From a virus: DNA of 39,976 nt. Each line of letters starts with the position of its first letter. The stretch's first letter is position 1. The position numbers were made by a program, and so were the translations under genes. Below are positions 23,102-39,976 of this stretch, piece after piece. The notes below the pieces were generated by a model. It had not been told where the DNA came from, did not search any database, and saw only the letters and a program-made list of their open reading frames with translations. Location: the IMG/VR virus record IMGVR_UViG_3300030104_005643, positions 1-39,976 of that record; one strand, 5' to 3'.

Positions 23102-23452
23102 TTACGCTATATGTAGCCTTCGACAGATTCCAAACCCGTTTTTTCTGTCTGCGATCATCTTTATAAGCGTTTCGCCATAGGCGTCGTTGTGGATGTAATT
23201 TTCATATTCTGCTTCCGTAACTTCTATTCCGTCAATCGTGATCAGTATGTTGTCGAAATCATCGCTGTTGCGAAACCAATCAAAATTTTCGCGATCTTCG
23301 ACTACGTAAACATTCTCACCATTGATGACGCTAACCGTAACGTCACCGTGAAAAAGAGGGTTGTTTTTTCCTTCGTACATAAACCTTCTGATCATTGTGT
23401 TTGCGTCAGCTAATTCTCTTGATGTGCTGAAGTGTTTCGCTGAGTTTGTCAT
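23102..23452 (-). CDS. Unknown early protein, 116 aa
   Basis: AGGAG-type Shine-Dalgarno, ATG at 23452. No family is recognised. The order is a helix-rich start (KHFSTSRELADANTMIRRFMYEG), a middle with several beta strands (VTVSVINGENVYVVEDRENFDWF, NILITIDGIEVTEAEYENYI) and a basic end. Own promoter at 23499 with -35 TTGACT, the leader box at 23472-23479. Stop sits against the late-operon terminator. Confidence 0.72.
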   Translation of the reverse strand: MTNSAKHFSTSRELADANTMIRRFMYEGKNNPLFHGDVTVSVINGENVYVVEDRENFDWFRNSDDFDNILITIDGIEVTEAEYENYIHNDAYGETLIKMIADRKNGFGICRRLHIA

Positions 23453-24573: not shown

Positions 24574-24663
24574 CTAATATAATGCGTATGCCATTAATGA
24601 CACAACTGTAATTACTATCATTGCGTGGTCGATAAGGTTGTTCCAATCTGTTTTTTTTGACAT
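24574..24663 (-). CDS. Single-pass membrane microprotein, 29 aa
   Basis: Below the usual length cut-off. ATG at 24663 with AGGAGA nine bases upstream, leader box at 24683-24690 and own promoter at 24711. Product: MSKKTDWNNLIDHAMIVIT followed by VVSLMAYALY; basic polar start and one hydrophobic helix. Stop TAG at 24574-24576. Full cassette signals support a real gene. Function unknown; possibly a membrane-active early protein. A longer frame-shifted reading of this locus starts without a Shine-Dalgarno and looks spurious. Confidence 0.7.
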   Translation of the reverse strand: MSKKTDWNNLIDHAMIVITVVSLMAYALY

Positions 24664-25884: not shown

Positions 25885-26319
25885 TTATCCGTTTTTTTCT
25901 GTGTTGATGTTTTTAATGATATTGATGAGGCCAAGGTTTACCAAAAGGTCGTCTTTGCGTTCTACTACATTTTCAAACAGGTCGCCTATGTGTTCGCCCG
26001 TCATACCCCAATTTACATAAATATCGTCATCGTCGTAGTCGTCTGTTATATCCTGTGTAATTTCGATGAAAAGATGGCCGTCGGGCGTTTCGTCGATTTC
26101 TGCTGTAACTGCCCATTCCTCGACCTTTTCGCCTTCGTTGTTTCTGCAAATAACACATCCTTCGTCAATCATTGTCTTGATTTGTTCAACAAATCCTAAT
26201 TCGCTTGGATAAAACAAGGCCACCTGATGATTAAGTGCGTTGCTGTCGTCATTGCGTTGCGCTTTGATGGCTTCGTGCGAATCGTGGTAGCCTGTTCTGC
26301 TGTTGACTAAGTTTGACAT
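25885..26319 (-). CDS. Unknown acidic early protein, 144 aa
   Basis: ATG at 26319 follows AGGAG in a full cassette leader. No family recognised. The middle (MIDEGCVICRNNEGEKVEEWAV) has a CxxC pair near residue 55 and the following region is very Asp-rich (TDDYDDDDIYVN), which might mimic DNA, a common theme of phage anti-host proteins. C-terminal part (DLFENVVERKDDLLVNLGLINIIKNI) is helical. Transcribed with DUF932. Confidence 0.7.
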   Translation of the reverse strand: MSNLVNSRTGYHDSHEAIKAQRNDDSNALNHQVALFYPSELGFVEQIKTMIDEGCVICRNNEGEKVEEWAVTAEIDETPDGHLFIEITQDITDDYDDDDIYVNWGMTGEHIGDLFENVVERKDDLLVNLGLINIIKNINTEKNG

Positions 26320-28709: not shown

Positions 28710-29408
28710 TTATTTGCCCTTCAAAATATCGTTACGTGCGTTCTCATTTGATTCGTGTTCCTTTATCGCACCGTGTAATTGTTTGCCGATAGATTTCATT
28801 TGTTTCTCATCCAAATCGTAAATAGTATTTTTTGGAATATGATTAATCCCAATAAATTCGTCCATGGTGAGATAGTGTTCAGCGAAAATTTTGTCTGCGA
28901 TATCTTTTTTTGCAGGGTCGGAAATGTGCTTTTCAACGTAGCTACGGAACTTATCCCACTGCTCTGTTGCGCGGACATTTTTCTTGTCCTTGTCGTAGAG
29001 TGCGAGGCCAAATTGATAACCGAATGTCATCATTGCGCGTTTCATTGCATCTGATTCCGCCTCTTTTATTGCACCTTCGTGTGCTTGCCCGAGGTTTTTG
29101 CCATAACCCGAGCCATATCCCCAACCCTCTCTGCGCGTAAAAGTGAGTCGGTCTTTTGATGCCCATACGGTAATACGCGACTTTGCTGAGTAGTGGACGC
29201 TATGCGTTCCACCTCGCTCCGACGAGTCGAGTAGGTTCATTAATAGTGTTTCTCGCTCCCAATTTCCGTGTCCAAATACCTGATTGAAACGATCAATGAC
29301 ATACCACGCCTCAACGTAATCAAGTTTAAAACCATTTTGATCACGCGACGCGACAAATTTATTGTCGAGGGGTTTGTTAAGTTCTGCGGTGACATCTTTG
29401 TTAAACAT
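28710..29408 (-). CDS. Rad52/22-family single-strand annealing protein, 232 aa
   Basis: Anneals complementary single strands in recombination-dependent replication or repair. The 110-140 segment HEGAIKEAESDAMKRAMMTFGYQFGLALYDK is the clearest family signature; YVEAWYVIDRFNQVFGHGNWERE near residue 31 and RREGWGYGSGYG near 92 also match. The C-terminal 80 residues are charged and more variable. It leads an operon with the wHTH and PD-(D/E)XK proteins, which together would make a recombination-replication module. Start at 29408, with AGGAG and a leader box at 29423-29430. Confidence 0.85.
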   Translation of the reverse strand: MFNKDVTAELNKPLDNKFVASRDQNGFKLDYVEAWYVIDRFNQVFGHGNWERETLLMNLLDSSERGGTHSVHYSAKSRITVWASKDRLTFTRREGWGYGSGYGKNLGQAHEGAIKEAESDAMKRAMMTFGYQFGLALYDKDKKNVRATEQWDKFRSYVEKHISDPAKKDIADKIFAEHYLTMDEFIGINHIPKNTIYDLDEKQMKSIGKQLHGAIKEHESNENARNDILKGK

Positions 29409-29446: not shown

Positions 29447-29475
29447 AATATATCATTTCATTTTAATGAGCGCAA
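29447..29475 (-). promoter_or_regulatory. Promoter of the rad52-replication operon
   Basis: TTGCGC (29470-29475), a 17-base spacer, TATATT (29447-29452). The -35 is weaker than in the other cassettes, so this long operon may be expressed at a lower level or activated. Confidence 0.72.
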
Positions 29476-29479
29476 GCGT

Positions 29480-29890
29480 TTATTCATGTTTTAATATTTT
29501 TATTTTTTCGTCTTCCTTTTTTCGACCCCTCGTTGTCTCAATGCCTCGTAGAGTTTCGACATCTGACTCTGTGTATAAGTATACCCCGTCGGCATCTCTG
29601 CGCGTTCCGACATTTTTAATTTTACTCCAACGGTGAATCCAAACCTTACTGCGACCTATTTTTTCGCTAACCTCAAGAGCCGTATATTTTTCTCCGAGCG
29701 CGTCTTTGAGCATCGTATAAAGCTCTTTATCGTCTAATCCAAAATCGTTTTTTAATCCCAATGGGTCACCGTCTGCTATCTTGCTGAGTAGACAGAGTCG
29801 GAATCGTTTTAGGTAATCGACTTGCGACTCTTTTGTTAATTGATCTGCGGTTTTTTCCCATGCCGAGAACTCTTTAATTGTTTCGATCAT
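29480..29890 (-). CDS. MerR-like HTH DNA-binding protein, 136 aa
   Basis: Residues 69-115 form a MerR/excisionase-like winged helix (YTALEVSEKIGRSKVWIHRWSKIKNVGTRRDADGVYLYTESDVETLRG). The N-terminal 65 residues are helical with an acidic segment; the tail is Lys-rich. AGGAAAAAG is the Shine-Dalgarno. It may regulate the adjacent replication operon or act at the origin. The ATG overlaps the small upstream gene by 17 bases. Confidence 0.72.
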   Translation of the reverse strand: MIETIKEFSAWEKTADQLTKESQVDYLKRFRLCLLSKIADGDPLGLKNDFGLDDKELYTMLKDALGEKYTALEVSEKIGRSKVWIHRWSKIKNVGTRRDADGVYLYTESDVETLRGIETTRGRKKEDEKIKILKHE

Positions 29891-30050
29891 TGCTTTTTCC
29901 TTTGCTTGTTAGGTTTTGTAATTCCATTATAGCTGTGTGTTCATCTCGTTGCTGTCTCCATTCGTCATAGGCGCGGTCTTCGTCAAACTCTGCTCGCCCC
30001 TCATCGGTTGGCGGTTCGTCGTTGTTTGGTATTCTACAAATATTATCCAT
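29874..30050 (-). CDS. Small acidic protein, 58 aa
   Basis: Just too short for the usual cut-off. MDNICRIPNNDEPPTDEGRAEFDEDRAYDEW then a helical basic end. GGGGAG upstream of ATG at 30050, and overlaps with both neighbours (8 bases with the upstream gene, 17 with the HTH gene). No family known; strong Asp/Glu content in the first half. Confidence 0.65.
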   Translation of the reverse strand: MDNICRIPNNDEPPTDEGRAEFDEDRAYDEWRQQRDEHTAIMELQNLTSKGKSNDRNN

Positions 30051-30441
30051 TGTTCTCCCCTGAGTGAAGTGTGATTGTCTTTGCTATATCTATATCCGTT
30101 TCAATTGCGCTAACTGTATCATTTGCGCTTTTAACCTCTGCGGTAATGTTTTGTCGTGTTTGGGCTATCAATAAATTACTCATTGTTGTTGCGTTGATTA
30201 CGTGCTGTTTGATTTTTTTTATTGCTCTTATTTCTGCTGTTTCGTACGCAGTTTGCCGTTGGAATATTTTTCTTTCTCCGTAGTAATAGGTGCAAGGGTT
30301 AGTTTCTATTTCGTCGCTTATATAGTCAAGGTCGTCCCTCGCTCGCTCTATAGCTGTCCGCAAGTCGGATAGTATTCTCTGTGCCTGATCGTGATAGTTT
30401 TGGGTGTGTCGGATTCCGATTAGCCGAGTTTCTTTTTTCAA
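30043..30441 (-). CDS. Helical early protein, 132 aa
   Basis: Start is a TTG at 30441 with AGGAG seven bases upstream, and the standard leader box (30460-30467); the frame itself stays open for 14 more codons. Sequence is almost wholly helical (HTQNYHDQAQRILSDLRTAIERARDDLDYISDEIETN, then IRAIKKIKQHVINATTMSNLLIAQTRQNITAEVKSANDTVSAIETDIDIAKTI); coiled coil likely. I do not recognise it. First gene of a four-gene transcript ending with the HTH protein. Confidence 0.7.
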   Translation of the reverse strand: MKKETRLIGIRHTQNYHDQAQRILSDLRTAIERARDDLDYISDEIETNPCTYYYGERKIFQRQTAYETAEIRAIKKIKQHVINATTMSNLLIAQTRQNITAEVKSANDTVSAIETDIDIAKTITLHSGENNG

Positions 30442-30470
30442 TTTGCATCTCCTTGATTTTGTGGTGTAAG

Positions 30471-30510
30471 ATTGACAACACAAAATAACGAATCATTTTG
30501 CATTGTCAAT
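30471..30510. promoter_or_regulatory. Palindromic promoter region
   Basis: ATTGACAACACAAAAT (30471-30486) and ATTTTGCATTGTCAAT (30495-30510) form an inverted repeat with 14 of 16 positions paired and an 8-base centre. Each arm holds TTGACA, so the site has a -35 in both directions, with ATTTTG- or TATTTT-like -10s. It fits the promoter of the 30043-30441 transcript on the minus strand, and the symmetry suggests an operator or bidirectional promoter. Confidence 0.7.
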
Positions 30511-30521
30511 AGTTTTCTTAT

Positions 30522-30797
30522 CTATTGTTGACCTATAATTTTATGCGTGGTGATTTGCGAAAGTTCTGCTTCTTCATAGACTTCGATAATTCCTGTAACA
30601 AAATACTCCCAATTATTATCGGTTTCTATTTCGTGCATGAAAAACGTATCATGTATTTTTGCGTTGTCGCCTAATGAAATATTTTCGTACTTGAATGTTT
30701 CGTCGAACGACCCTGCAAAGCCTGTAGAGCCTTTCAGCACGTAGCGGTTTCCGCTTGCTGTTTCTTCGATAACGTATGCGGTGATGTTTTTAGACAT
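30522..30797 (-). CDS. Unknown early protein, 91 aa
   Basis: Start ATG at 30797 with AGGAG and standard leader box (30829-30836). Predicted beta-rich (ITAYVIEETASGNRYVLKGS, WEYFVTGIIEVYEEAEL). No family recognised. It is the first minus-strand gene next to the iteron region; its promoter -35 lies 30 bases from the first iteron, so iteron binding could affect it. Confidence 0.7.
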   Translation of the reverse strand: MSKNITAYVIEETASGNRYVLKGSTGFAGSFDETFKYENISLGDNAKIHDTFFMHEIETDNNWEYFVTGIIEVYEEAELSQITTHKIIGQQ

Positions 30798-35973: not shown

Positions 35974-36435
35974 TTATTTCCTGAATTGAACTTCGGGGTG
36001 TGAGAAGTTATTGAGGCGAAACATTTCTCGACACTTGTATCCCCAATCAGAAGGCTTTGCCTGTTTCTCTTTGCCTACTTGAATCTTTATCCACCAAGAG
36101 GGGTTAGCGTAGTCGAGGTGTTGTTCGTGCGCTTCGTTCATCGCCTTGTCGCCTGTCGTTTTTGCGCCCGTATACATAGCCTTTTTAATTTGATTTAGGG
36201 CTGACTCGTCTGCTTGGCTGAAGCCTTCGGTTTTGCAGGTGTGATCGACATGGAACTCGTTTACGTTTACGACGCGACCCTCTGCGCTCCGAAACATATC
36301 CTTGCCCTCAGTAATGGTTAGGACAAGCGTGTTGCCCTCTTCGACCTTAAAGCGACCCTTTAGCCCCCATTGATCAAGGATTGCCTTGACGATTGGGGTG
36401 ATTGCTTTTTTGCGTTCTTGGTTCATGTAGGCCAT
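35974..36435 (-). CDS. Conserved phage protein, MAYMNQE family, 153 aa
   Basis: The start AYMNQERKKAITPIVKAILDQWGLKGRFKVEEGNTLVLTI is the shape of a conserved phage family that begins MAYMNQE (from memory); the function is unknown. A middle with VNVNEFHVDHTCKTEGF and a C-terminal WIKIQVGKEKQAKPSDWGYKCREMFRLNNFSHPEVQF complete it. AGGAG before the ATG at 36435; own promoter at 36480 with a weaker -10. Confidence 0.75.
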   Translation of the reverse strand: MAYMNQERKKAITPIVKAILDQWGLKGRFKVEEGNTLVLTITEGKDMFRSAEGRVVNVNEFHVDHTCKTEGFSQADESALNQIKKAMYTGAKTTGDKAMNEAHEQHLDYANPSWWIKIQVGKEKQAKPSDWGYKCREMFRLNNFSHPEVQFRK

Positions 36436-36479
36436 TTTGAATCTCCTGAAAGTGTGGTGTGTTGTTTAACTTACTAATT

Positions 36480-36507
36480 AATGTAACAAATCGTTTTTGT
36501 AGGTCAA
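36480..36507 (-). promoter_or_regulatory. Early promoter for the 35974-36435 gene
   Basis: TTGACC (36502-36507), 16-base spacer, TACATT (36480-36485). Degenerate at two positions relative to the other cassettes. Leader box at 36453-36460. Confidence 0.7.
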
Positions 36508-36515
36508 GTCTTTTT

Positions 36516-36809
36516 TTAAGCTGATTGATATTTTTTATTTGCTTCGTAAAAAATAGACGGAAACATTTTACGGTGATTTTCCAAATTTAATCTCTCTGCT
36601 TCTTCCTTGCATTCCCATTGGTAGTAGTAGACGCCAACACTCTCCCCGTTTACGAGCAAAACGCTCCCTACTGCATCGTAATACTTAAACGTCTCATAGG
36701 TCGTGTTCGTTGTTGGATCGTATGCCTTCAGTCCGATTTGGTCAGGTATGCGCTTCCACTTGAGTTGCATGTCGCTGACGATCTTCATTGTTTCTGTGCG
36801 CGTTTCCAT
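36516..36809 (-). CDS. Unknown early protein, 97 aa
   Basis: Start at METRTET (36809) after AGGAG; leader is open upstream. Sequence: a KWKRIPDQIGLKAYDPTTNTTYETFKYYDAVGSVLLVNGESVGVYYYQWECKEEAERLN segment that looks like a small beta domain followed by a helix. No family recognised. Confidence 0.72.
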   Translation of the reverse strand: METRTETMKIVSDMQLKWKRIPDQIGLKAYDPTTNTTYETFKYYDAVGSVLLVNGESVGVYYYQWECKEEAERLNLENHRKMFPSIFYEANKKYQSA

Positions 36810-36855
36810 TTTATTTCTCCTGAAAGTTTGTGGTGTGTTTGTCTGATCCATAACT

Positions 36856-36883
36856 AATATAACAAATCGTTTTATAATGTCAA
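36856..36883 (-). promoter_or_regulatory. Early promoter for the 36516-36809 gene
   Basis: TTGACA (36878-36883), 16-base spacer, TATATT (36856-36861), leader box at 36829-36836. Confidence 0.84.
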
Positions 36884-36892
36884 GTGTTTATT

Positions 36893-36926
36893 TAAAAAAA
36901 AGAGGCAGGGCATTTTGCCCTACCTC
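36893..36926 (-). terminator. Intrinsic terminator after the 36939 gene
   Basis: Minus strand: GAGGTAGGGC-aaaa-TGCCCTGCCTC followed by TTTTTTTT (36893-36900). A true rho-independent terminator that separates the 36939 gene from the next cassette. Confidence 0.85.
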
Positions 36927-36938
36927 AATTCAGTTTGC

Positions 36939-37118
36939 TTACACCTCAACACTTCCATGCGTTTGACGCCAAATTTCCTCAAATTTTTGCAAGCGTTCTA
37001 TTTCCTTATCTTTGGAAGCGCAAACAGCTAATCCTTTTTCTATGCGTTTCTGCAAGCGTTCTACGTATGATATTTGGACTTCGGTCATTCCGTCTGTGTT
37101 AAGTTCTGAAAAGCTCAT
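36939..37118 (-). CDS. Coiled-coil small protein, 59 aa
   Basis: One residue below the usual cut-off. MSFSELNTDGMTEVQISYVERLQKRIEKGL, then ASKDKEIERLQKFEEIWRQ, suggests two coiled-coil helices. Full cassette: promoter at 37162, leader box 37136-37143, AGGAGA, ATG at 37118, and terminator directly after the stop. No function known. Confidence 0.72.
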   Translation of the reverse strand: MSFSELNTDGMTEVQISYVERLQKRIEKGLAVCASKDKEIERLQKFEEIWRQTHGSVEV

Positions 37119-37161
37119 TTTGTTTCTCCTGTTGATGTGGTGTGTTTTTTAACTTACTTAT

Positions 37162-37189
37162 AATATAGTGAATCGTTTTGAATTGTCAA
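37162..37189 (-). promoter_or_regulatory. Early promoter for the 36939-37118 gene
   Basis: TTGACA (37184-37189), 16-base spacer, TATATT (37162-37167). Confidence 0.84.
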
Positions 37190-37220
37190 GTCTTTTTTTA
37201 GTCTTTTTTTATTTTTTTTT

Positions 37221-37253
37221 AAAAAAAGGAGAAGGGGAAAAACCCCCTCTCCT
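37221..37253 (-). terminator. Intrinsic terminator after the 37269 gene
   Basis: Minus strand: AGGAGAGGGG-gttttt-CCCCTTCTCCT followed by TTTTTT. A strong terminator between two cassettes. Confidence 0.85.
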
Positions 37254-37268
37254 GAAAGCGTTTTTTAG

Positions 37269-37463
37269 TTACGCCCATTCGCTGTCTGAAAGCCATCCGA
37301 CGCGAGCCTCTCTTGATTCGACGACTTGCTTGATTTGTTCGATTAAAGGATGGTCAGCGCAGTGTGCTTCGATTGTTGAGGCTATGTTCTTGAGCGTTTC
37401 GTTTCCGATGAAGCCTGTGTTGAGGTCGAAGTTTTTGGTGATGTTGTCGTTGAGGTTTTCCAT
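37269..37463 (-). CDS. Small early protein, 64 aa
   Basis: ENLNDNITKNFDLNTGFIGNETLKNIASTIEAHCADHPLIEQIKQVVESREARVGWLSDSEWA: mainly helical. Cassette leader with variant box (37482-37489). Unknown function. Confidence 0.7.
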   Translation of the reverse strand: MENLNDNITKNFDLNTGFIGNETLKNIASTIEAHCADHPLIEQIKQVVESREARVGWLSDSEWA

Positions 37464-37507
37464 TTTCCGTCTCCTGTTTTTCGTGGTGTCGTTTTTAACT
37501 TACTACT

Positions 37508-37536
37508 AATATATAACGATATGTTTTAGATGTCAA
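37508..37536 (-). promoter_or_regulatory. Early promoter for the 37269-37463 gene
   Basis: TTGACA (37531-37536), 17-base spacer, TATATT (37508-37513). Confidence 0.84.
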
Positions 37537-37572
37537 GTCTTTTTTTAGTTTTTTTTTAGTTTTTTATAGCCT

Positions 37573-37607
37573 AACGAAAGACAGGGCATTTTACCCTGTC
37601 TCTCGTT
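37573..37607. terminator. Hairpin after the 37614 gene
   Basis: AACGA-aAGACAGGG-catttta-CCCTGTCTCTCGTT. T's follow on the plus strand and not on the minus strand, so for the minus-strand gene it is an imperfect terminator and on the plus strand it could block counter-transcription. Confidence 0.6.
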
Positions 37608-37613
37608 TTTGTT

Positions 37614-37892
37614 TTATATATAGTAAAACTCGTTGTATTCAGTTTCGTATTTCTGAATGAATTCGCTTGCATAGTTCTTTGCATCTTCTGTTGCCCAATA
37701 CTGCGGTGTGTTCTTCGACTTATCAGTTTCGACCATGTGACAGCATTTACCGTTATCCGCTTCTCTTGTGTAAATTATTTGGTATGACAAATATTTTTCA
37801 TCTTCTTTGCGAGTAACTTCTACCGAGTAGTTTTTGATCTTAAATGCTTCGTATCGGCATTCATATGGCAATGTGAAGTTAGGCTTGGTCAT
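37614..37892 (-). CDS. Small early protein, 92 aa
   Basis: MTKPNFTLPYECRYEAFKIKNYSVEV, KYLSYQIIYTREADNGKCCHMVET, WATEDAKNYASEFIQKYETEYNEFYY: small alpha-beta protein with a CC pair and Tyr-rich end. The start is backed by AGGAGA; box variant at 37910-37917. Not recognised. Confidence 0.72.
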   Translation of the reverse strand: MTKPNFTLPYECRYEAFKIKNYSVEVTRKEDEKYLSYQIIYTREADNGKCCHMVETDKSKNTPQYWATEDAKNYASEFIQKYETEYNEFYYI

Positions 37893-37935
37893 TTTGTTTC
37901 TCCTGTTAGTATGGTGTGTTTTTTAACTTACTACT

Positions 37936-37964
37936 AATATATAACAGTTCGTTTCAAATGTCAA
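37936..37964 (-). promoter_or_regulatory. Early promoter for the 37614-37892 gene
   Basis: TTGACA (37959-37964), 17-base spacer, TATATT (37936-37941). Confidence 0.84.
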
Positions 37965-37983
37965 GTCTTTTTTTTAGTTTTTT

Positions 37984-38247
37984 TTATTTTTTTCTTGCCT
38001 TTTCTGTCTTTGCATTAATCTGAGCAATTTCTCTGTCGTCGATAATGCTATCAAGGGAAGCTAACGCATTGCGAATAGAGGAAGCGATTAGGTGTATAGT
38101 GTCGCTATTCTCGTTCTCAGTGTTTATGACAGTGATGTTATTGATAGCGTTGTGTGCAATTATTAGCCATTTCTTCAGATGCTTAGTTGAAACGTCATTA
38201 GATTTTTCGTCGTGGTTTTCGTCTAAAATTACTCCTTGCTGTGCCAT
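37984..38247 (-). CDS. Small early protein, 87 aa
   Basis: Start MAQQGVILDENHDEK (38247) with AGGAGA. Helical, with a hydrophobic middle (LKKWLIIAHNAINNITVI). No promoter of its own: it follows the 38303 gene after a box (38295-38302) and hairpin (38261-38287). Unknown function. Confidence 0.7.
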   Translation of the reverse strand: MAQQGVILDENHDEKSNDVSTKHLKKWLIIAHNAINNITVINTENENSDTIHLIASSIRNALASLDSIIDDREIAQINAKTEKARKK

Positions 38248-38260
38248 TTGGAATCTCCTT

Positions 38261-38287
38261 GGAGAGCAGGGCTTTCGCCCTGTCTCC
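38261..38287 (-). other. Intergenic hairpin between box and Shine-Dalgarno
   Basis: GGAGACAGGGC-gaa-GCCCTGCTCTCC, on the minus strand after ACACCACA (38295-38302) and before AGGAGA. No U-run. Closely related to the hairpin at 38740-38768, so the element is copied. Confidence 0.68.
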
Positions 38288-38302
38288 TGTTGTGTGTGGT
38301 GT

Positions 38303-38638
38303 TTAGAATGAAACGTCGTGGTGATATGAACGAAAGCCTATGCCGATCTTGCTTGTGCTGTTGATGATCTTCCACTGTCCGCGCTTGTTTTGGCGAGCCT
38401 TATATACTGTGCCGTCGAGGTTCGTTTCGTATTTGTATTCCTGTCTGCCGTAATAGCCATTGTCGTCGATGCGCGTAGCTGTGTCGTAAGTGAACTCTAT
38501 CGTCTTCCCTGTCTTACTTATTCCTACTATCGTTCCGACATGGCGATCTGTCCACAGGTATTCGGTAATTCCCATTCCGATCTGTGGGGTGATCTGTTCG
38601 CTGTTTTCGGCTAATCGGTTTTGAAGTGAGCCTTGCAT
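38303..38638 (-). CDS. Conserved phage protein of unknown function, 111 aa
   Basis: The sequence shape GMGITEYLWTDRHVGTIVGISKTGKTIEFTYDTATRIDDNGYYGRQEYKYETNLDGTVYKARQNKRGQWKII, ending IGFRSYHHDVSF, matches a family found in many phages (PATIV...RIDNNGMS...QEYEYSPNPNG...YHDFSF). It is predicted all-beta. No function is known. Promoter at 38683. Confidence 0.78.
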   Translation of the reverse strand: MQGSLQNRLAENSEQITPQIGMGITEYLWTDRHVGTIVGISKTGKTIEFTYDTATRIDDNGYYGRQEYKYETNLDGTVYKARQNKRGQWKIINSTSKIGIGFRSYHHDVSF

Positions 38639-38682
38639 TTTGTTTCTCCTAAAAAGTGTGGTGTGTTTTAAATCTCATAACT

Positions 38683-38711
38683 AATATAAAACGAATCGAA
38701 ATTCCTGTCAA
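38683..38711 (-). promoter_or_regulatory. Early promoter for the 38303 and 37984 genes
   Basis: TTGACA (38706-38711), 17-base spacer, TATATT (38683-38688), leader box at 38657-38664. Confidence 0.84.
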
Positions 38712-38739
38712 GCGTTTTTTTATTTTTTTTAACCTTCTT

Positions 38740-38768
38740 GGGAGAGCAAGGCTTTCGCCCTGTCTCCC
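38740..38768 (-). other. Hairpin after the 38779 gene
   Basis: GGGAGACAGGGC-gaaa-GCCTTGCTCTCCC. Lies between the stop of the 38779 gene and the A-tract of the next cassette; no U-run on the minus strand. A copy of the element at 38261-38287. Confidence 0.65.
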
Positions 38769-38778
38769 GTGAAGTATA

Positions 38779-39009
38779 TCATGCTTTACAGAATGCCTTC
38801 GCTCCCTCAAGCGTTGTTGCTGTGTGTAGAACGTGATCAACCCTGCCAAGAAACGGGATGATGTCCGCTCCTCGCTCTATCAGGTCATACTCGCCCTTCT
38901 TGCGTAGTTCAATACGATAGACAACCTTTTCGTCAACTAAGCCAACCCAAGACTTAGCTTTAGAACCGTCAAGGTTTACTATTGATTCAATCCATTCTAC
39001 TGTCTGCAT
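38779..39009 (-). CDS. Small early protein, 76 aa
   Basis: MQTVEWIESIVNLDGSKAKSWVGLVDEKVVYRIELRKKGEYDLIERGADIIPFLGRVDHVLHTATTLEGAKAFCKA: a compact alpha-beta protein, unrecognised. It has no promoter; it follows the 39061 gene after box variant (39052-39059) and hairpin (39025-39047). Confidence 0.72.
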   Translation of the reverse strand: MQTVEWIESIVNLDGSKAKSWVGLVDEKVVYRIELRKKGEYDLIERGADIIPFLGRVDHVLHTATTLEGAKAFCKA

Positions 39010-39024
39010 CTTATTTCTCCTTTA

Positions 39025-39047
39025 GGAAGAGGCTTTTGCCTCTCCCC
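39025..39047 (-). other. Intergenic hairpin between box and Shine-Dalgarno
   Basis: GGGGAGAGGC-aaaa-GCCTCTTCC, related in sequence to that at 36-59 and 39582-39605. Located after the box at 39052-39059 and before AGGAG. Confidence 0.65.
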
Positions 39048-39060
39048 ATTATGTGGCGTT

Positions 39061-39450
39061 TTATCCGCGCCAATTACGCGAATCGTGATATGCGTCTGCG
39101 TCAAGTTCTCCGTGACCGTCAACGTTTACTGACTTTCCAAATACAGACTTGCCGTATTTTTCATCGCTCATTCTATATTGATTAAAAACGTCGAGTTGCT
39201 TAACGCAATCTGCCCTGTTGGCAGAGGTTCCCCAATACTGAGGCTCTAAGTATGCGACGTGGTGAACTACGCCCTCTTCGACCTCGACGACCTCTACGAC
39301 ATACTTATCGTTGTGCTTTATTATCTGTGTGTAGCTTGGAAAGTAGAGGCCACCGTCGCCACCGTTCAACTCGACGCCCTTATCATAATCTGCCTTGGCT
39401 TGCTTGGCTTGAGCGAGTGACATCGTGTTGTTTTCGATTGAGAAGTTCAT
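39061..39450 (-). CDS. Unknown early protein, 129 aa
   Basis: ATG at 39450 with AGGAGA, promoter at 39498 and leader box 39471-39478. Central motif VEVEEGVVHHVAYLEPQYWGTSANRADCVKQL; beginning NFSIENNTMSLAQAKQAKADYDKGVELNGG. The resemblance of PQYWGT and the alternating helix pattern to the 37614 protein (PQYWATEDAKNYASEF) suggests that both share one small domain. Function unknown. Confidence 0.73.
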   Translation of the reverse strand: MNFSIENNTMSLAQAKQAKADYDKGVELNGGDGGLYFPSYTQIIKHNDKYVVEVVEVEEGVVHHVAYLEPQYWGTSANRADCVKQLDVFNQYRMSDEKYGKSVFGKSVNVDGHGELDADAYHDSRNWRG

Positions 39451-39497
39451 GTTGTTTCTCCTGATAAGTGTGTGGTGTATTTTTAATTTCTATAACT

Positions 39498-39526
39498 AAT
39501 ATAAAACGGATTGAAACAGTTGTCAA
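39498..39526 (-). promoter_or_regulatory. Early promoter with phased A-tracts, for the 39061 gene
   Basis: TTGACA (39521-39526), 17-base spacer, TATATT (39498-39503). Upstream (39527-39575), A-tracts of seven recur with a 10-base period. Confidence 0.85.
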
Positions 39527-39575
39527 GTCTTTTTTTATCTTTTTTTATCTTTTTTTATCTTTTTTTATTTTTTTC
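39527..39575 (-). repeat. 10-base A-tract repeat upstream of a promoter
   Basis: The plus-strand unit TTTTTTATCT is repeated three times in tandem (39531-39560), with related T-runs on both sides. As A-tracts are placed once per helical turn directly upstream of a -35, this resembles an intrinsically curved UP-element. Confidence 0.7.
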
Positions 39576-39581
39576 TCCTTC

Positions 39582-39617
39582 GGGAAGAGGCATTTGCCTC
39601 TCCCCGTTGCGTGGTGT
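39582..39617 (-). other. Orphan leader: box, hairpin and Shine-Dalgarno without a gene
   Basis: Minus strand order: box variant ACACCACG (39610-39617), hairpin GGGGAGAGGC-aaat-GCCTCTTCCC (39582-39605), then AAGGAG with no ATG within reach, running into the A-tract. All parts of the leader are there, but no ORF follows. It appears to be the remnant of a lost cassette gene. Confidence 0.6.
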
Positions 39618-39627
39618 AAGTTCTTTA

Positions 39628-39939
39628 TTATTTATTCAAGAGTTCTATGGCTTCGTCCATTGTCTTTAATCTTTTATCTGTAATCGCTTTCCAAGAAACT
39701 GTTCTCTTCCGTTCGGTTTCTAAGTCGTGTTGCATATCCTTTGCTCTGTTTGACCAATATAGGATGCTTTGTTCTCGCTCGTTGATATGTTCGTTCGCTT
39801 TTTTTAATTCTTCTTTTAGCTTATTGTTTTTTTTAATTTCGTCAAAAGTCTCTATCTGTTGTTCTGACATTGCTTCGAGAAGCATTTCAAATTTCTCATT
39901 GAGCCTGTCGTATTTTTCTTGTAGTGTTAGCGTTTCCAT
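39628..39939 (-). CDS. Coiled-coil early protein, 103 aa
   Basis: METLTLQEKYDRLNEKFEMLLEAMSEQQ, then KLKEELKKANEHINEREQSILYWSN, suggests a coiled coil along most of the length. Start at 39939; its Shine-Dalgarno and hairpin are in the terminal overlap, and its first codons recur at 1-20. Transcription probably comes from the 357-385 promoter across the genome closure. No family recognised. Confidence 0.73.
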   Translation of the reverse strand: METLTLQEKYDRLNEKFEMLLEAMSEQQIETFDEIKKNNKLKEELKKANEHINEREQSILYWSNRAKDMQHDLETERKRTVSWKAITDKRLKTMDEAIELLNK

Positions 39940-39976
39940 TTTGTTTCTCCTTTGGGGAGAGGCGTTTGCCTCTCCC
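39919..39976. repeat. Terminal overlap (right copy)
   Basis: Identical to bases 1-58 except one base in the loop of the hairpin (G at 39964, A at 46). Supports closing the map. Confidence 0.85.

Follow-up and report, generated by a model that had tools for sequence, protein, structure and literature searches.

Lambdoid morons are autonomous genes that carry their own promoter and terminator and are acquired as a unit. A feature of the PeSL (promoter-early stem-loop) cassettes of T4-type myoviruses, reportedly described by Arbiol et al. in 2010 and by Comeau et al. in 2014, is that cassettes recombine with each other to give excised mini-circles. Two papers citing that work describe such cassettes in T4-type phages (PMC3950731, PMC4503421). 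Intergenic motifs of the haloarchaeal virus HGTV-1 have been proposed to aid shuffling (PMC3950731), and the SAS/ESAS system of cluster K mycobacteriophages has a 13-bp element, GGGATAGGAGCCC, at translation starts (PMC3203893). Here, we analysed the IMG/VR record IMGVR_UViG_3300030104_005643 (39,976 bases, hereafter the window; its phage is called A, and two relatives from IMG/VR are called B and C). Its minus strand carries thirteen copies of a promoter-leader unit ahead of mostly small genes. Very probably, they all represent one mobile regulatory cassette, with recombination at the repeats exchanging the genes behind them.

In contrast to morons, which are single, unrelated insertions, one regulatory unit recurs thirteen times here. 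PeSL cassettes appear to be the closest kind, and the window's cassettes would by analogy work alike outside the T4 family. As in PeSLs, a strong early-type promoter is repeated between small dispensable genes, at most boundaries beside a hairpin that may correspond to the PeSL stem-loop, and it is at the repeats that the gene content of relatives diverges; intergenic promoters that are sigma-70-like by sequence recur in a setting of small variable genes, with breaks at the cassettes. Here, however, the carrier is not a T4-type myovirus but a tailed phage of 40 kb that is unrelated to T4, with a portal (phrog_145), a head protein (phrog_283) and a long tape measure among its structural genes, and its terminase and portal find their best matches in non-T4 phages. 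The repeat also runs through a conserved 5' leader and Shine-Dalgarno (SD) sequence as far as the start codon, a terminator T-run is missing from many hairpins, and related phages each have a promoter core of their own. The likeness to SAS/ESAS is that a repeated element marks where translation begins in some of the non-structural genes; an inverted repeat lies just upstream of half of the mycobacteriophage elements, and its consensus varies between subclusters (PMC3203893). Here, too, the repeat is limited to non-structural genes and the upstream element is subgroup-specific, as the promoter core differs from phage to phage; the difference is that a full promoter-leader is repeated and that the part common to the phages is an ACACCAC box upstream of the SD. 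HGTV-1 likewise has a conserved promoter-like TATA/inverted-repeat motif before most genes of one arm (PMC3950731), but its promoter is archaeal and the virus is unrelated.

The cassettes share one order of elements: an A-tract, TTGACA, 16-17 nucleotides (nt), TATATT or a close variant, an unstructured leader of about 40 nt, ACACCAC, AGGAGA and ATG. By nhmmer and pattern searches, the −10 elements and leaders of all thirteen minus-strand promoters listed in an initial annotation of this DNA were recovered at their places. At these sites the −35 hexamer reads TTGACT or TTGACC in three and TTGCGC at 29447, and many leaders start with AGTTATAGAAATTAAAA or AGTAGTAAGTTAAAA. The −10 is separated from ACACCAC by 16-20 nt, the box from the SD by 2-9 nt, and the end of the −10 from ATG by about 38-47 nt. 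A strict TTGACA-N15..18-TATATTA pattern gave nine matches, all of them on the minus strand, and a reversed-pattern control gave none. The promoter followed by ACACCA had 14 matches, again all on the minus strand, against a mean of 0.53 and a maximum of 3 in 200 dinucleotide shuffles; the initial annotation had named a lack of enrichment over shuffled sequence as grounds for refutation. Similarly, CACCA[C/T] followed within 2-14 nt by GGAG and a start codon occurred 18 times on the minus strand and once on the plus strand (shuffled mean 0.32, maximum 3). When the regions upstream of all start codons of the window were compared with one another, one cluster of 11 emerged and almost nothing besides. 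The copies had been called near-identical, which overstates their likeness: mean pairwise identity is about 65%, or about 69% once divergent copies are dropped, and the exact runs common to leader pairs reach 26 bp at best and about 12-13 bp in most.

The leaders are nearly free of structure, with a mean minimum free energy of −2.3 kcal/mol as compared with −10.6 at late-gene starts, and the box is 88% unpaired. An Rfam search did not find a known RNA family. Carriers of ACACCAC are confined to minus-strand early genes and one plus-strand gene, that for the single-stranded DNA (ssDNA)-binding protein. In A, B and C, the box is found ahead of promoterless genes as well, some of which have a hairpin dividing it from the SD, indicating that box and promoter are separable. 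We infer that ACACCAC is a translation-enhancing element. In minus-strand box-to-SD hairpins (38248-38302, 39010-39060 and 1-74), the 5' arm carries GGAGA and the 3' arm is of a TCTCC type that could pair with the downstream SD instead, forming a possible translational switch.

We scanned 2.9 million viral contigs for the leader pattern, and it matched this phage group only. Two further contigs, L107 and L108, showed a bare leader at single sites with no promoter and were taken as chance. Repeated leaders were absent from distant relatives with terminases about 70% identical (L083 and others). A search of related phages had been proposed with the initial annotation, and the same leader is indeed present in B and C. 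Phage B comprises contigs G002 and G003, which have the same gene order where they overlap and 70-95% DNA identity to the window; phage C (G006) has a portal 59% identical, and L030 is a fourth, fragmentary relative. On the minus strand of the first 500 bases of L030, each of two promoters of the form TTGACATTAA...TATATT precedes a leader hairpin (CGTTAGC-AATAAC/AATGAC-GCTAACG) where ACACCAC would stand.

The right arm differs between A and B. Seven promoter-leaders of the window, all on the minus strand as are the window's promoters, leaders, genes and hairpins below unless stated otherwise, are missing from B: P39498 (39448-39534), predicted to drive 39061-39450 (129 residues); P38683 (38636-38719; gene 38303-38638, 111 residues); P37936 (37890-37971; 37614-37892, 92 residues); P37508 (37461-37543; 37269-37463, 64 residues); P37162 (37116-37196; 36939-37118, 59 residues); P36856 (36807-36890; 36516-36809, 97 residues counted from the leader ATG); and P36480 (36433-36514; 35974-36435, 153 residues, matching phrog_10415). 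The gene of P39498 is absent from B along with its promoter, as is the promoterless second gene of that cassette (38779-39009), which has a hairpin leader. The window's ends (1-58 and 39919-39976) overlap and match at 57 of 58 bases, although the record is listed without end repeats, and a sister-strain contig, L009, is continuous across the junction; the map is thus circular, at about 39.9 kb, and places P357 (309-393; gene 75-311, 78 residues; 58.1 bits by nhmmer) immediately upstream of the right-arm array. In B, the counterpart of P357 (L017:14847-14931) and its gene (54% identical) are followed side by side by homologues of two promoterless genes, 39628-39939 (43% identical) and 37984-38247 (69%), each with an ACACCAC-hairpin-SD leader. 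The same two genes are kept apart by cassettes in the window. At 39575-39627, an ACACCAC-hairpin-GGAG leader without an ATG abuts the A-tract of P39498 and is a probable fossil of a cassette insertion. Conversely, B carries cassettes missing from the window (L015:1468 and L015:12316). At the place of the array, B also encodes, on the plus strand, a B-specific 157-residue protein (L017:13590-14063) that starts with a P-loop-like MRILICGMQGTGKTW.

Elsewhere, leaders are retained while the genes behind them change. At P30844 (30795-30877; gene 30522-30797, 91 residues) and P23499 (23450-23535; gene 23102-23452, 116 residues), homology between A and B spans the leader and ends at the start codon (30795 and 23446, respectively), after which a different gene follows. 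At P26367 (26317-26402), the leader is 74% and the downstream hairpin 88% conserved in B, and the intervening genes (25885-26319, 144 residues, in the window and 126 residues in B) give no significant protein match; B has an additional 346-residue open reading frame just upstream. A homologous leader with an unrelated gene behind it is hence found at three positions common to A and B. At P24711 (24661-24746), three B genes lie between the leader and a membrane peptide that stands directly behind the leader in the window. This peptide (24574-24663; 29 residues, MSKKTDWNNLIDHAMIVITVVSLMAYALY) has a single membrane span, and its B homologue is kept. Homologues in B exist for three of the 13 promoter-proximal genes versus 12 of the 13 promoterless genes on the early strand (Fisher p=0.001). 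What comparison of the sequences shows, then, is that the repeats exist and where they lie, that genes are replaced within limits set by leaders and hairpins, and that whole cassettes are present in one relative and absent from another. The suggestion that promoter-gene units are gained and lost as wholes agrees well with the seven promoters missing from B, the B-only cassettes and the three re-loaded leaders.

Variation between strains was also concentrated at a cassette. The window and L009 have 13.7 kb in common with 11 substitutions, eight of which fall within about 170 bp (38540-38714) covering the leader of P38683 and the first third of its gene. Copying from another cassette was considered as the source of this patch of single-nucleotide polymorphisms (SNPs), and the best donor leader in the genome explained at most four of seven sites. 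Because the other leaders fail to explain it, the patch most likely reflects either an exchange with a diverged form of this cassette or unusually fast local change. L009 also has a 25-base frameshifting deletion (window 36381-36405) in the last cassette gene, 35974-36435; it lies about 480 bases or less from the contig end, so that an assembly error is possible.

How such cassettes might work can be outlined as follows. Each would fire its small accessory gene independently and early through host RNA polymerase, and strong hairpins at most boundaries would partly insulate one cassette from the next. The repeated promoter-leaders and hairpins would serve as homology for recombination, probably with the Rad52-like annealing protein that the phage encodes as the recombinase; genes between two copies could thereby be inserted, deleted or exchanged, and an incoming gene would at once come under a ready-made promoter and ribosome-binding site. 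Both promoter activity and participation of the recombinase are inferred from the DNA itself. Early timing is plausible given the consensus-like sigma-70 promoters, their strand and their position, and anti-host roles of the cassette genes are a reasonable guess. The candidate recombinase is a Rad52/Erf-like single-strand annealing protein (28710-29408; phrog_26464, E 4.5e-16, with phrog_3290 and phrog_1097) in a recombination operon behind the divergent leader P29447 (29406-29482), whose in-place B counterpart is 76% identical. The minimal pairing segment of Red-beta is 23-27 bp of exact identity, and phage Rad52-like recombinases accept diverged substrates (PMC3945230). Repeats of the length and similarity found here are plausible substrates for the encoded protein.

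Several observations weigh against this account. Exact runs in most leader pairs are below the Red-beta threshold, and as they extend to only about 12-13 bp, the hairpins and the genes themselves may add homology. Of the 15 boundaries examined on the minus strand, 12 have a hairpin of about −19 to −25 kcal/mol; the right-arm cassettes had been described as divided by hairpins, which is correct for most boundaries but not for 37984/P37936 and 36516/P36480, and 26404/P26367 lacks one as well. A proper T-run follows only two of the right-arm hairpins (37227-37253 and 36902-36926, both terminator-like and between cassettes). With few T-runs and three hairpin-free boundaries, insulation would be incomplete. 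The SNP patch fits exchange or divergence at a cassette and not copying from cassette to cassette. The contrast between promoter-proximal and promoterless genes is weaker when counted from the genes of B (2/8 versus 12/18, p=0.09). Finally, the differences between A and B appear unpolarised, gain in A and loss in B fitting alike.

Could the units instead be strong host-type promoters that evolved independently, converging on host sigma-70 and ribosome-binding preferences with no recombination between copies? A conserved −35 hexamer followed by four free bases is what selection on sigma contacts would give, and a mean identity of only about 65% is in keeping with it. The similarity nevertheless exceeds a promoter consensus: it includes ACACCAC, the initial AGTTATAGAAATTAAAA / AGTAGTAAGTTAAAA of the leader and exact runs of 20-26 bp. 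Gene replacement, moreover, ends exactly at the leaders, and the distant relatives do not have the repeated leader. We regard such convergence as unlikely. Somewhat less unlikely, though still doubtful, is a trans-acting factor, a phage RNA-binding protein or small RNA, that binds ACACCAC or the leader and co-controls early and middle genes, the need for this control driving the spread of the element. The box is the part best conserved across A, B and C, and it precedes promoterless genes too, some of them with a box-SD hairpin; a candidate RNA-binding protein and an Rfam element were searched for and not found, however, and a plain unstructured leader for ribosome loading accounts for the same observations equally well.

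The least probable of these alternatives is that the promoters are operators of one regulator, forming a regulon that is repressed or activated rather than constitutively early. A candidate regulator is encoded: the MerR-type helix-turn-helix (HTH) protein at 29480-29890, conserved in B and weakly in C, is a possible regulator of early genes. The consensus spacer AACGATTCGTT looks palindromic, and the −35 region of B is a conserved 10-mer, TTGTGTTCTG. Site by site, however, spacer palindromy amounts to 4.23 of 6 pairs as against 4.25 in shuffled spacers, so that an operator palindrome in the spacer was rejected, and C has the MerR-type homologue with an unrelated spacer. A mobile cassette, exchanged at its repeats, remains our preferred explanation.

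The promoter core itself is specific to each phage. The TTGACA hexamer is conserved in A and the following four bases vary freely; in B, six of the eight copies conserve the full 10-mer, beyond the hexamer, and TATAAT is a frequent −10. The core of C combines TTTACW with TATCTT. Of the six positions common to A and B, five show the version typical of the respective phage; only the divergent P29447 class departs from this, being conserved where it stands. Subgroup-specific consensus elements are already known in cluster K phages (PMC3203893). One tentative interpretation, which we do not favour strongly, is that cassettes evolve in concert within each phage, the −35 region being replaced in most or all copies while the ACACCAC leader is retained. 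If so, the concerted −35 change would represent gene conversion spreading one promoter version through the genome or, alternatively, a coordinated shift of promoter specificity to a different sigma factor or activator, belonging to another host or encoded by the phage.

Among the remaining features, a degenerate fourteenth copy (30441-30516; element 30509-30482, TTGACA-16-TATTTT with ACACCACA) lies ahead of 30043-30483. The cassette proteins, annotated as 59-153 residues long and mostly of unknown function, fit that description in most cases, except that P24711 starts with the 29-residue membrane peptide and P29447 precedes the Rad52-like gene. Searches of PHROGs, Pfam and PADLOC matched the small cassette proteins to no family of known function, and two single-sequence structure models (mean predicted local distance difference test, pLDDT, 43 and 38) were uninformative. 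Outside the window, the genes of P39498 and P38683 recurred among viral contigs only in L009, apart from a single short and weak match in L113. The window as a whole makes up a complete tailed-phage genome. Its plus strand encodes portal, head morphogenesis, major head, tail tape measure, endolysin, ssDNA-binding and terminase proteins, and its minus-strand products include Mu-Gam-like, Rad52/Erf-like annealing and MerR-type HTH proteins. With half of the window searched, phage records held no close DNA relative. Alicyclobacillus, the sole leader match among 84,980 species genomes, was rejected as a host, since a match at this level is expected about by chance by our own estimate.

Taken as above, these cassettes would add a small tailed phage to the carriers of PeSL-like modular shuffling, which has been described for T4-type myoviruses and suggested for one haloarchaeal virus. 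They would also give a view, at the resolution of single genes, of how a new gene comes under a strong promoter and a ribosome-binding site that are already in place, and the phage-specific −35 switch may offer a way to study the joint change of whole promoter families. For uncultured phages, a rule may follow: swappable accessory genes, candidates for anti-host or anti-defence functions, would sit behind a repeated leader.

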